The notes beneath the pieces were generated by a model. That model was not told the DNA's origin, did no database searches, and was given only the letters and a program-made list of their open reading frames with translations. From positions 1 to 24,687 of the IMG/VR virus record IMGVR_UViG_3300028569_002587: DNA of 24,687 nucleotides. One strand, 5' to 3'. Origin of the DNA: a virus. Below, piece after piece: positions 13,420-20,113 of this stretch (the first letter of the stretch is position 1; every line of letters begins with the position of its first letter). The translations under genes and the position numbers were made by a program.

Positions 13420-15213
13420 TTAAATTGGTGCAGCTGTGCCTACTTCAGGAGCTGGCGCGCCTGCTTCTGGTGGAGGTCCAAATTCCGGAGGGGCTGCTTC
13501 TCCACCTTCCATCGGGGGTGCTCCTGCTCCCGTATCTCCGTCTGGCATCATACTTCCTGGACTACCAGCAGCCATAGGTTGACCTTCTACACCACCACCC
13601 GGGGCAGCTGCTTTCTTCCAGTTAGGACCTGCTGCTTGTATTTGAGATAATTCCCATTCGAATTCTCTATCTTTTCTCAAGAATTCTCTATTCACCAAGA
13701 CTTCTTTATCAGACCATTTGAGATATCGTCTTTGAGCATACGTTTTAGAAATACTTTCATTTTGAGTCATTTGATTAAAAGCGTTTGCTTTAATTTCTAA
13801 TTTTTGCGATTCTCTTAATTCGTAGAAATTTGTTGGTGGTGTAAACTCTAAGTTAAATTGTGATTCTTTAAGATCACTCTTTTTCCAAATATTTTTTAAT
13901 TTAAGGTGTGTAATAAAACCATTCTTAAGACCTGTTGCAAAGTGTTGCTGCATTCTAACAAGAAATTTAGCAAATTTTAACTCCTCTCTTAACATTGTCA
14001 TGGAGTCATTAATTGCACTCTCTTTATTAAGTCGTCCTACAGGTACCTTCAAGGCTTCATATAATTTTTCTTGAAAATATTTGATGTCTGCCAATTGATC
14101 AAGATTAGCAGCACCAGGAAGCGAGTTTACTGTTGTACCCTCAGAGCCTTGTCTTTTTGCAAACCAGTAATTGTCAAGATATGATTGAGGATTAAATTTA
14201 TTTGCCTGTCCCCCTTGAGAGGAATCGTATGTTCTCTTGGACCAATAAGATTGCATGAGACGCTTTACATAAGCTTCTGCTTTTGGAGGTGACATATTAC
14301 CTACGTCAACACTAAAGACTAATCTTTCCGGAGCCCGGGCTAATCTGTAAATGACAATGCTGTCCTCAATCATAGAAAGCTGACGATATGCTCTTCTACA
14401 GTTTTCAATAAAAGGAATACGCATTGTTTTATTTTCATTCCAAGTCCCTGAATTAATGTACGTAACTTGATTTTTATCAAGCGGTATTAACTGATAATCA
14501 AGAATTTTATTAGGATTAGTAGGATCAAAAATAGGCTTTCTCAAGATATAACCTTTAATAATCATATTCTGAACGTTACCAAAGATAGGATCAACTAATT
14601 CTGTAGGTACTAGAAGTGCACCTAAGATTCCAGCTTCAGGATAATCACTGTGTATGACATGTTCAAAATATAATTCACCGTCTGTTAGAATATTTCTAAA
14701 ATACTCCCATCCTTTTTCTTCTAATTCGAAATGTTCTATATATTTTTGAAATTCTTCCTCAATATCTGTTTTTACAGATGAAGGTAACTCATCATTTTTA
14801 TAAACTACTTTAATAATACAACCGCTATCGTCTTTATTAATGCATTCATCACAAATCTCATCTAACGCATTTGCAACTTCAGCAAATGCACCCATTACTC
14901 TATAATCTCTTAATCTCGAAATTTTGTCCGCCTGAACGTTGGCGTACATGTATTGAGAAAAATTAGTGTCAATATTAAAAAACGCTGACGGAGAATCATT
15001 ATTAAATTGAGTGTTAGATGATACTGAGTGTTTAGTAAGAGCTTCAACTTTTTTTGAACCCGTATCCTGGAATTCAGCAAACTTAGGATTAAGTTTTTCA
15101 ATTGTATCTAGTGTATTATAAGAACCATACGGAAGATAGGTATTGACGTAGTTCATCAATGATTTTCCGAATGTATTCTCTCTGCCAGTACTGGAATTGC
15201 CGTATTCTGCCAC
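13420..15213 (-). CDS. 20: Portal vertex protein (T4 gp20 homologue)
   Basis: A 597-aa protein from GTG 15213. The core carries the hallmark gp20 segment: RAYRQLSMIEDSIVIYRLARAPER, then VFSVDVGNMSPPKAEAYVKR, SYLDNYWFAKRQGSEGTTV, and LPGAANLDQLADIKYFQ followed by LYEALKVPVGRL. Twelve copies form the dodecameric ring through which DNA is packaged and to which the neck attaches. It is longer than T4 gp20 (524 aa) because of a Pro/Gly/Ala-rich tail from about residue 535 (GGGVEGQPMAAGSPG... to GTAAPI), which is also locally GC-rich. A CTAAATA box lies 5 nt before the GTG. The start is supported because no other in-frame start lies nearby upstream. Confidence 0.97.
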   Translation of the reverse strand: MAEYGNSSTGRENTFGKSLMNYVNTYLPYGSYNTLDTIEKLNPKFAEFQDTGSKKVEALTKHSVSSNTQFNNDSPSAFFNIDTNFSQYMYANVQADKISRLRDYRVMGAFAEVANALDEICDECINKDDSGCIIKVVYKNDELPSSVKTDIEEEFQKYIEHFELEEKGWEYFRNILTDGELYFEHVIHSDYPEAGILGALLVPTELVDPIFGNVQNMIIKGYILRKPIFDPTNPNKILDYQLIPLDKNQVTYINSGTWNENKTMRIPFIENCRRAYRQLSMIEDSIVIYRLARAPERLVFSVDVGNMSPPKAEAYVKRLMQSYWSKRTYDSSQGGQANKFNPQSYLDNYWFAKRQGSEGTTVNSLPGAANLDQLADIKYFQEKLYEALKVPVGRLNKESAINDSMTMLREELKFAKFLVRMQQHFATGLKNGFITHLKLKNIWKKSDLKESQFNLEFTPPTNFYELRESQKLEIKANAFNQMTQNESISKTYAQRRYLKWSDKEVLVNREFLRKDREFEWELSQIQAAGPNWKKAAAPGGGVEGQPMAAGSPGSMMPDGDTGAGAPPMEGGEAAPPEFGPPPEAGAPAPEVGTAAPI

Positions 15214-17420: not shown

Positions 17421-19049
17421 GTGATTAATAAACTGCTAAAACACTTTCCTAAAGACTATGAGCCTTCTACCGGTCAGGTAGATATTATTAAGAGGGTCGA
17501 TCATGCCTTTACTCATAATAATAAATTTTGTATTGTATCTGCACCAACAGGCACAGGTAAGAGTTTTCTTGCAATGACGTTGGCTAATGCTAGCAATCCC
17601 CCGTCACAAAATTTTATTAATCTTATTAAATCATATGATGCTTATAAACAAGACTTTACAGGTAATTATACCAATCAGATAGAATGTGAAGAAGAGTTTC
17701 CTTTTGGGGCAATGACTCTCACAATAACAAAAAGCTTGCAGGACCAGTACAAGGAATTGTTTAATGAGGTCGCAGTATTAAAGGGGAAGAATAATTATAT
17801 GTGCGAAGTAGATCTGATATCTACAGTAGAATCAGCTCCATGCATGATTGCACCTAAGATTAAAGAATCGTGCTGGAGTTGTGATAAATGCACTTATTAT
17901 AATGATAGAAATAGTACACTGCTATCAAAGCACAGTGTTTTAAACTATAAAATGTTTTTACATTTACCACGTCATTTAAAGCGTAAGAATTATATTATTT
18001 GCGACGAGGCATCAGAGCTTGAAAATGAGATGGTAAAGATGTTTTCATTAAATTTAGATATTAGTAAGTTACAAAAACTAGGTATAAAGATACCAAAAAT
18101 TAATAAGCCTGAAAATAAGGTAGTTAAAGAGTGGCTCGGTACGTTATCTTTAGTATTAAGTAATTTTATTGAGTCTCTTGTAAAAGAACATAGTGTTAAT
18201 TCTAACCTTGTTATTGGAGTAAAGGCTAAGATTTCAATCTTAAGAAACATTTACTGGCAAATAAATCAATGTCTTACCGAGTGGCAGACCTGTGAGTGGG
18301 TTATTGATTTTCCGCAAAATGATGTACTTACTATTACTCCCCTTAAAGTAAGTACATTAACCAAGCATATATTTGATTATGCAGATCAGGTAGTATTGAT
18401 GTCTGCAACAATTATCGATCATAAGAAGTTTGCTGAATCTTTAGGTATTGAAAAATATGAGTATATTGAGACCAGTAGCAACTTTGATCCTAAGCAAAGT
18501 CCAGTTTATTTGAGTAATCAGCAAGGATTAAATCACGCTAATAAAGCTCAATTATTACCTCAGATGGCTACTCAGATCAAAGAGTTATGTAAATTATTTT
18601 CTGATAAAAAAGGCATTATACATACTCATAGTTCGGACATAACTTCTATATTACAAAAATATCTTAAGGATAATAGATTTTTATTTAGAAATGAATTGGC
18701 TAACAACGAAGATATATTGAATAAGCATATGAGCTCTAAGGATCCTACTGTTTTAGTAAGTCCTTCTCTAACTCATGGGATTGACCTAAAGGACGATTTG
18801 GCAAGATTTTGTATTATTGTTAAATTGCCTTATTTACCTCTTGGAGACAAGAGAATTAAAAAAATGTTTGATATAGACAAAGAATGGTATGAAAATCAAA
18901 TGTTAAATACACTTGTTCAAATGTGTGGTCGTGCAACTAGGAGTAAAAATGATTATAGTACTACTTATATTCTTGATGGTAACGGTATAAGAGTATTACC
19001 CAGAGTTAAAGGTAAGCTACCTGATCATTTTTTCTCTAGAATACACTAA
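17421..19049 (+). CDS. DinG/XPD-like superfamily 2 helicase with iron-sulfur cysteines
   Basis: A 542-aa protein from GTG 17421. Helicase motifs in order: Walker A APTGTGKS (41-48); a cysteine set Cys128, Cys141, Cys151, Cys154 and Cys157 between motifs I and II that fits a 4Fe-4S domain as in DinG/XPD/Rad3; motif II CDEAS (Asp195-Glu196, DEAS in place of DEAH); VVLMSATI (motif III, about 324-331); VSPSLTHGIDL (motif V); and QMCGRATRS (motif VI, 500-508). These enzymes unwind DNA 5' to 3', including forked and R-loop structures. It has five candidate cysteines where four are needed. It closes the replication-type block and is followed by virion genes. Confidence 0.92.
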   Translation: MINKLLKHFPKDYEPSTGQVDIIKRVDHAFTHNNKFCIVSAPTGTGKSFLAMTLANASNPPSQNFINLIKSYDAYKQDFTGNYTNQIECEEEFPFGAMTLTITKSLQDQYKELFNEVAVLKGKNNYMCEVDLISTVESAPCMIAPKIKESCWSCDKCTYYNDRNSTLLSKHSVLNYKMFLHLPRHLKRKNYIICDEASELENEMVKMFSLNLDISKLQKLGIKIPKINKPENKVVKEWLGTLSLVLSNFIESLVKEHSVNSNLVIGVKAKISILRNIYWQINQCLTEWQTCEWVIDFPQNDVLTITPLKVSTLTKHIFDYADQVVLMSATIIDHKKFAESLGIEKYEYIETSSNFDPKQSPVYLSNQQGLNHANKAQLLPQMATQIKELCKLFSDKKGIIHTHSSDITSILQKYLKDNRFLFRNELANNEDILNKHMSSKDPTVLVSPSLTHGIDLKDDLARFCIIVKLPYLPLGDKRIKKMFDIDKEWYENQMLNTLVQMCGRATRSKNDYSTTYILDGNGIRVLPRVKGKLPDHFFSRIH

Positions 19050-19052
19050 ATA
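19045..19052 (+). promoter_or_regulatory. ACTAAATA, candidate late promoter
   Basis: It overlaps the helicase stop codon and lies 17 nt before the inferred ATT start of the next virion gene, with a Shine-Dalgarno in between, the classical T4 late-gene order. It is identical to the box ahead of the portal gene. Confidence 0.5.
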
Positions 19053-19056
19053 CAAT

Positions 19057-19063
19057 AAAGGAG
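19057..19063 (+). promoter_or_regulatory. AAAGGAG ribosome binding site that decides the ATT start
   Basis: AAAGGAG is followed by the 6-nt spacer AAAAAT and ATT at 19070. It is the best Shine-Dalgarno sequence I noticed in the window. The first conventional in-frame start (TTG 19106) is 42 nt away, too far to use it. Confidence 0.75.
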
Positions 19064-19069
19064 AAAAAT

Positions 19070-19903
19070 ATTAAAAAACAAACTTTTCATTTTGAGATAC
19101 AAGACTTGCTAATTCAATTTTTAGCAGCTTTTGATAATGTAGTAATAAGCAGGTTTAACGACAGGGAGAGAGTAACAGGACAAAATATACAAGTAAAATA
19201 TGTTTATGCTCCTAAACAGCGTGTTTTGTATGATCTTATAAACCCTGGCCAAAATTTAGTATTACCTGTAGTCGCTGTTAATATTACTTCAATAGCCAGA
19301 GATGAAAATAGAGTTTTTAGTAAAAATTCAGGATTTTTAGCACCTTCAATGGCTAGTAAGAATACGATTTTACCTGTATCTCCTTATTATAAAACTCCTG
19401 TACCTGTAAACATATCAATAAGCATGTCAGTATTGACTAAGAATCAGATTGACATGGATCAAATTATTAGCAATTTTGTACCTTATAACAACCCTTATAT
19501 TATTATAGCATGGAAAGTACCGGAAATTTTTAACCCAGTGTACGAACAGGAAATAAGAACGGAGGTTTTATGGGACGGTAATATAAGTTTAAATTATCCT
19601 TTAGAAATTAATAATACACAAAAGGCTCAAGTTATAGCAGATACTTCTTTTACTATAAAAGGTTGGTTGTTCCCCTATGTAGATAGACCTGTTAAAAATA
19701 TATATAAGATAGATACTAGCTTTTATGCTATTAAAAAAGGTACAAATATAGATTATACAAATTATTTTGATTTATCTGCTCTGGGTTTATCTGTTCAGGA
19801 AGACAGAGAAGTATTTTATAGCAATACAACAACAGTCTCTGGTTATCCAAAATTTACAGATATTAATATTATAAAATATTATAATACCGAAGTTGATTTA
19901 TAA
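19070..19903 (+). CDS. Conserved virion (tail/baseplate-type) structural protein with probable ATT start
   Basis: 277 aa if initiated at ATT 19070, giving (M)KKQTFHFEIQDLLIQFLAAFDNVV. I recall this N-terminus, together with VKYVYAPKQRVLYDLINPGQN, LPVVAVNITSIARD, PVNISISMSV, FVPYNNPYIIIAWKVP and SFTIKGWLFPY, as a conserved structural protein of marine T4-like phages; the place in the particle is uncertain. The frame before TTG 19106 is open and encodes the conserved segment, so the shorter start would remove part of the family core. No ATG, GTG or TTG lies in this frame between the Shine-Dalgarno and 19106. It is the first virion gene after the helicase. Confidence 0.8.
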   Translation: MKKQTFHFEIQDLLIQFLAAFDNVVISRFNDRERVTGQNIQVKYVYAPKQRVLYDLINPGQNLVLPVVAVNITSIARDENRVFSKNSGFLAPSMASKNTILPVSPYYKTPVPVNISISMSVLTKNQIDMDQIISNFVPYNNPYIIIAWKVPEIFNPVYEQEIRTEVLWDGNISLNYPLEINNTQKAQVIADTSFTIKGWLFPYVDRPVKNIYKIDTSFYAIKKGTNIDYTNYFDLSALGLSVQEDREVFYSNTTTVSGYPKFTDINIIKYYNTEVDL

Positions 19904-19913
19904 CGTATCTATT

Positions 19914-19921
19914 ATTAAATA
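19914..19921 (+). promoter_or_regulatory. ATTAAATA box 9 nt before the 60-aa gene
   Basis: A TAAATA-core element at the same 9-nt spacing as the exact TATAAATA of the fibre gene at 3498. It is inferred to be a late promoter. Confidence 0.35.
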
Positions 19922-19930
19922 TAATTACAT

Positions 19931-20113
19931 ATGGAAACAACTAACGAACAACAAACATTGAGTGATGAAGATCTTATTAAAGCCAAGCAAGAAATTGAAG
20001 AAGTTCTTCAAAAGTATAAGGCAGTTTTAGTACCTATTACTATTCATCATGGTGATAAGACATTTAGTAGAATTGATATTGCCCCGGCCACAATAAATTC
20101 AGATAATAGCTAG
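19931..20113 (+). CDS. Small conserved phage protein (60 aa)
   Basis: An acidic helical N-terminus (SDEDLIKAKQEIEEVLQKY) is followed by a strand-rich half, VLVPITIHHGDKTFSRIDIAP. Small proteins of this plan lie among virion genes in marine phages, from memory; function unknown. It sits between two virion structural genes in the same direction. Confidence 0.68.
   Translation: METTNEQQTLSDEDLIKAKQEIEEVLQKYKAVLVPITIHHGDKTFSRIDIAPATINSDNS

Follow-up and report, generated by a model that had tools for sequence, protein, structure and literature searches.

Evolution has been regarded as making almost no use of start codons of the ATT type. Across 36 genome groups of bacteria and archaea, AUU was gained at 1 in 61,358 ancestral AUG starts and at 1 in 5,080 GUG starts (PMC5622118). 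Among the systems described, infC of E. coli, the gene for initiation factor IF3, resembles the phage gene characterized here in that its AUU start is led by a Shine-Dalgarno (SD) sequence, and this unusual codon plausibly restricts translation while making it sensitive to IF3 (PMC5472188, PMC4611024). A different non-canonical codon, GTC, holds down one protein relative to its partners at sigR of Streptomyces (PMC5472188). The rpsU (bS21) gene of Flavobacteriales resembles our gene in its strong SD, which stands isolated in genomes otherwise making little use of SD; a search of the text of that paper found no mention of AUU (PMC9976891). By protein family, the comparison is with gp15 of phage T4 (PF16724; PDB 4huh and 3j2m by profile). 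An ATG opens gp15 in cultured cyanophages and in Acj9, and in most of those checked this ATG overlaps the upstream gene or directly follows it. The clade described below is unlike these in having a predicted stand-alone late promoter together with weak start codons.

The stretch of DNA that was analyzed, here called the window, comprises 24,687 nt of a viral record (IMG/VR IMGVR_UViG_3300028569_002587, positions 1 to 24,687). The features surrounding the start of its gp15 gene are the following.

17421-19049, + strand: UvsW-like DNA helicase gene, 542 aa (phrog_2488, E 1.8e-98; Helicase_C_2)
19045-19052, + strand: putative T4-type late promoter box, acTAAATA (the T4 form is TATAAATA at -13 to -6)
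19058-19063, + strand: Shine-Dalgarno sequence AAGGAG, with a 6-nt spacer to the start codon and a computed pairing of -8.7 kcal/mol
19058-19069, + strand: predicted 12-nt mRNA leader, AAGGAGAAAAAT, placed by T4 late box geometry (PMC2988020)
19070-19072, + strand: probable ATT start codon of gp15; the homologous column holds ATG, GTG, TTG, ATT, ATC or ATA only
19070-19903, + strand: predicted gp15 (tail sheath stabiliser, or tail completion protein), 277 codons plus the stop at 19901-19903
19106-19108, + strand: in-frame TTG at codon 13, the conventional choice of a gene caller, rejected here as the start

The order at the start of gp15 reads aaaggagaaaaat-ATT-AAA-AAA-CAA-ACT-TTT-CAT, and the GGAG core of the SD occupies 19060-19063. 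As at infC, the first codon is AUU, its position offers no conventional start, and an SD stands at the proper spacing. Ten open codons separate the upstream stop from the ATT at 19070, and no in-frame ATG, GTG or TTG was found in that interval; the next in-frame candidates inside the gene are the TTG at codon 13 (19106) and an ATG at codon 94. The stop codon of the helicase gene, TAA (19047-19049), forms part of the late-promoter-like box, whose TAAATA core spans 19047-19052 and whose first two positions (ac) differ from the T4 form. In T4 the box sits at -13 to -6, and in Aeh1 a/gC replaces TA at -13/-12 (PMC2988020). By the T4 geometry, the +1 of the gp15 mRNA would fall at about 19058, 5 nt after the box. 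It was also noted that a small ORF 3' of gp15 (19931-20113) has a TAAATA box of its own (window positions 19916-19931), which lies 9 nt before its ATG and predicts a 4-nt leader.

Profile matches identify the ORF at 19070-19903 as the predicted tail sheath stabiliser (gp15) of a T4-like phage, in line with the earlier note on this DNA, which had taken it for a virion gene. The match to the whole-protein profile PF16724 has an E value of 2.6e-20 and scores 73.1 bits over residues 9-226, against a curated cut-off of 25, and phrog_227 is matched at 6.7e-17. The family profile reaches the T4 gp15 structures (PDB 4huh/3j2m) at an E value of about 2e-5, over positions 95-223 only. The clade is distant from cultured phages, being approximately 25% identical to cultured cyanophage gp15. 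A scan of genome contigs found no cellular or prophage relative, and portal searches returned distant cyanophage and T4-like matches only, with no hint of the host. An A-rich upstream signature of the Bacteroidia type (A at -3 and -6) was looked for and not seen, so the host is not assignable by that route. The segment KKQTFHFEIQDL, which the earlier note had described as conserved in marine T4-like homologues, is indeed shared by homologues across a large clade of uncultured T4-like phages. The cultured cyanophages checked, and Acj9, lack it; there gp15 has another beginning and an ATG.

We then compared the first codon across homologues. For the 14 first relatives, which are 49-67% identical, the alignment begins at residue 1, and each has a start-type codon, ATG, GTG or ATT, exactly there; one of them, L014, is another ATT copy, with AGAGGAGG. 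Among 199 distinct IMG/VR homologues the first codon was GTG in 118, ATG in 39, TTG in 20, ATT in 19, ATC in 2 and ATA in 1, a set in which an ATT-selected scan had enlarged the share of ATT, so that the overall frequency is to be taken from the unselected scans. The first of these recorded 5 ATT and 1 ATA among 115 copies (5% ATT/ATA). The second, in which the first codon was left open, recorded 4 ATT and 2 ATC among 59, its gp15 matches showing NTG, ATT or ATC only. Scanning specifically for ATT returned 26 stretches, all of them gp15 and nearly all with a strong SD, and scanning for ATA/ATC returned 13 stretches, again all gp15 (13/13), while a VVH scan of the start column, covering 27 of the 64 codons, gave a single match and no gp15. 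A conventional start upstream of the ATT is absent in nearly all ATT copies, and the next NTG lies at least 12 codons inside for most of them and 51-117 codons inside for several. In homologues whose GTG or ATG occupies the position of the ATT, the reading frame is kept from codon 2.

A maximum-likelihood tree of 196 gp15 copies was used to follow the recurrence of ATT. About 13 changes are needed on this tree, and at least nine are forced by well-supported branches. The nearest relatives of the window copy (L002, L003) have ATG, and the neighbors of L014 are a mix of ATT, GTG, ATG and ATA copies. Identical ATT sequences were encountered in two different metagenomes for four pairs (L169/L185, L173/L190, L177/L180 and L175/L193). 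Two sister copies on short branches, L043 with TAAATA-N4-GTG and L055 with TAAATA-N16-ATT, the 16 nt including GGGGAGG, represent what appears to be a recent one-step switch of the start codon together with the upstream signal. From these comparisons, the relatives of gp15 have evidently switched repeatedly to weak start codons where the ribosome-binding signal is strong.

The start codon was found to be coupled to the signals that precede it. An SD of at least 4 nt was present in 19 of the 20 ATT/ATA copies versus 9 of the 177 NTG copies (Fisher exact test; p about 1e-18, relatedness ignored), and when relatedness was corrected for by means of 9 independent pairs, the SD went with ATT in 6-7 and against it in 0 (p 0.016-0.031). 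The SD-led copies (n = 20) comprise 17 ATT, 1 ATA and 2 TTG, with no ATG or GTG. Where a TAAATA box ends 4-7 nt before the start (n = 140), the copies are predicted to be leaderless or nearly so, and their codons are GTG (114), ATG (14), TTG (10) and ATC (2). Copies with neither an SD nor a close box have mostly ATG (25), followed by TTG (8), GTG (4) and ATT (2). TAAATA stands at a distance of 5 from the start codon in 88 of the 118 GTG copies, where the mRNA would then begin with the GTG itself. In those ATT copies that have an exact box the distance is 14-26; L133 and L177 are ATT copies without an exact TAAATA. The SD-ATT rule is imperfect, because L171 lacks an SD and because ATC or ATA occurs on predicted leaderless mRNAs (L212, L258, L390). 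As to the first exception, L171 / L186 represents an ATT-started gp15 with no SD of any kind, 18 nt after TAAATA. In L212, L258, L383, L387 and L390, the ATC or ATA stands directly behind the late box with no SD in front, and initiation on AUC or AUA of a leaderless mRNA would be very unusual if real.

Two explanations would remove the ATT start altogether. According to one, the true codon is ATG and the ATT reflects an error of sequencing or assembly, or a defective gene; the window sequence does rest on one record, and the earlier note had offered a single-base change or an assembly error as its alternative. This reading is rejected and appears very remote: the aligned column shows start-type codons in 199 homologues, 19 of them ATT, and the same codon recurs with an SD where the tree has changed independently, nine times or more, and in unrelated contigs, several of the copies being identical across two metagenome assemblies. 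According to the other, translation begins at TTG 19106 or elsewhere and the ATT merely lies in the leader. This TTG is a conventional start, and the Pfam match is nearly equal when counted from there (5.8e-20 versus 2.6e-20). However, no SD was found in front of it, homologues align from codon 1 instead of beginning at its position, with the frame kept from codon 2, and in many ATT copies the first 50 codons contain no NTG; it was rejected as the start, and a start there is highly improbable. The ATT at 19070, placed 6 nt after AAGGAG as had been claimed from the sequence, is therefore very probably the genuine start codon of gp15. The expectation that homologues would begin here with ATG held for the position and failed for the codon, since most have GTG on a seemingly leaderless or near-leaderless late mRNA.

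To place gp15 among the other genes of these phages, we examined related contigs. In the six ATT-type contigs, no other ORF had an SD-led ATT for which a nearby NTG alternative was lacking. A hexamer SD is rare in the same contigs, with 12 likely start-type cases among 714 ORFs: 5 at ATT, all of them gp15 (5/5), 6 at ATG in other genes, and 1 at an ATA that is followed by an ATG three codons later. The idea that these phages use ATT throughout was rejected, gp15 being the only convincing ATT gene in the six. A 5-nt SD precedes 8.7% of NTG starts versus 7.5% of internal controls, which is near background, with somewhat higher values in contigs G005, G008 and G009. TAAATA, on the other hand, lies 4-6 nt before the NTG start in 227 of 1109 ORFs versus 6 of 851 internal controls (nine contigs), a placement from which predicted leaderless late mRNAs appear to be general in the clade. 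The spacing TAAATA-N5-ATG was counted 147 times and TAAATA-N5-GTG 35 times in the contigs behind L306-L363 and the window, and predicted leaderless starts among conserved families are ATG in 31 and GTG in 5. These counts, like those of gp15 itself, suggest that predicted leaderless late mRNAs, mostly with ATG, are widespread in uncultured T4-like phages. Compared with the other genes of the clade, the predicted start of gp15 is unusual in preferring GTG, and ATT when an SD is present. It was noted that the portal gene of the window (gp20, phrog_213; 13420-15213, - strand) has GTG in the same predicted leaderless arrangement. This holds for its relative in G007 too; the other contigs have ATG. 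One ATT-type phage contig of 209 kb, G001 (L315, L316, L323), carries approximately 27 tRNA genes.

The reading that we favor, at a probability of roughly 0.6, is that the ATT start is genuine and that gp15 is held at a low dose, the weak codon offsetting a strong SD. The gene's own putative late promoter (TAAATA, 19047-19052) would give a transcript from about 19058, and the very short leader would open with the SD itself (AAGGAGAAAAAU-AUU), which would place the ribosome on the AUU. Across the family the codon appears to match the strength of recruitment, with AUU, AUA or UUG behind a strong SD, mostly GUG on leaderless or near-leaderless late mRNAs, and mostly AUG on leadered mRNAs lacking an SD. 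Since AUG is found where recruitment is weak and the weakest codon where it is strong, a fixed low output may have been selected; stabilising selection on low gp15 output would be the simplest reading, and the matching of start-codon weakening to a strong SD suggests that gp15 production is held down. That low dose is the purpose of the weakening we regard as an even bet, and we infer the transcription start, the protein level and the selection for low dose from sequence. T4 gp15 is hexameric, yet other hexameric virion parts show no ATT, so that low copy number alone does not predict the behavior of gp15. Furthermore, the grading of codons against recruitment takes its relative efficiencies from measurements on other bacteria; in E. 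coli, initiation on a leaderless GUG is very poor (PMC4611024). The earlier suggestion of low or regulated expression is consistent with these data insofar as the start codon co-varies with the SD and with promoter spacing. The parallel with infC is limited, infC being an autoregulating cellular initiation-factor gene and gp15 a phage late structural gene, whose relatives, unlike infC, swap AUU for GUG or AUG together with promoter spacing. In a similar manner, sigR differs in its codon, in being a cellular regulator, and in that its repression was shown by experiment.

The main rival to a fixed low dose, unlikely in our estimate and still live, is that gp15 translation follows the IF3:ribosome ratio during infection, as in infC. 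IF3 is reported to discriminate against starts without a 3' G, AUU, AUC and AUA among them, and to act against leaderless mRNAs as well (PMC4611024), and a non-canonical start with IF3-mediated repression has been shown for sigR (PMC5472188). In approximately 70% of gp15 copies the late box precedes the start by 4-7 nt, and approximately 10% have ATT, ATA or ATC; because both the SD-led AUU and the leaderless architecture would be discriminated, most copies would be IF3-sensitive in either form. Against this, leaderless ATG is common in other late genes of the same phages, so leaderlessness is not specific to gp15, GUG is not discriminated by IF3, and a change of the IF3 level in these hosts would have to be assumed. 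A more doubtful explanation, which we consider improbable, invokes a choice among ribosomes: a strong SD would have gp15 read mainly by ribosomes with an exposed anti-SD, for example those of Bacteroidota hosts that otherwise ignore SD, with bS21 missing or swapped, and extended pairing would make the identity of the start codon unimportant. In Flavobacterium johnsoniae, ribosomes without bS21 favour mRNAs with a strong SD and position the start codon even when initiator tRNA is absent (PMC9976891), and freshwater myophages encoding bS21 are predicted to infect Bacteroidetes (PMC9723584). The near-background use of SD in our contigs would fit, as would the bS21-like protein present in 5 of 13 records searched, two of them ATT-type. 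However, the window, G001, G003, G004 and G006, some of which are fragments, yielded no bS21 gene; a few other genes in the ATT-type contigs combine an SD with ATG; and the pairing of the window SD, at -8.7 kcal/mol, falls short of the < -13 reported for rpsU (PMC9976891), a threshold that only three ATT copies pass. The five phage-encoded bS21-like proteins (L375-L379, from G002, G009, G005, G008 and G010) are not uniform, that of G002 clearly differing from the other four. Broader than either explanation is the idea that the switch of start codon and SD ties one step of tail assembly to the state of the host ribosome, whether through the IF3 level or through bS21 exchange, which seems to us a long shot. 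If true, leaderless GUG and SD-led AUU, both disfavoured by ordinary 30S initiation, would allow tail completion only after late remodelling of the ribosome.

The family provides a natural experiment on the trade-off among start codon, SD and leader length, in which the supported branches require one phage gene to have gained or lost ATT nine times or more, in step with the upstream signal. Gene callers that admit only ATG, GTG and TTG would truncate gp15. The annotated gp15 start of Cyanophage P-RSM1 (L370; NC_021071.1) lies 99 nt inside the gene, although an ATG is present at the start site used by its relatives, and is likely a misannotation.
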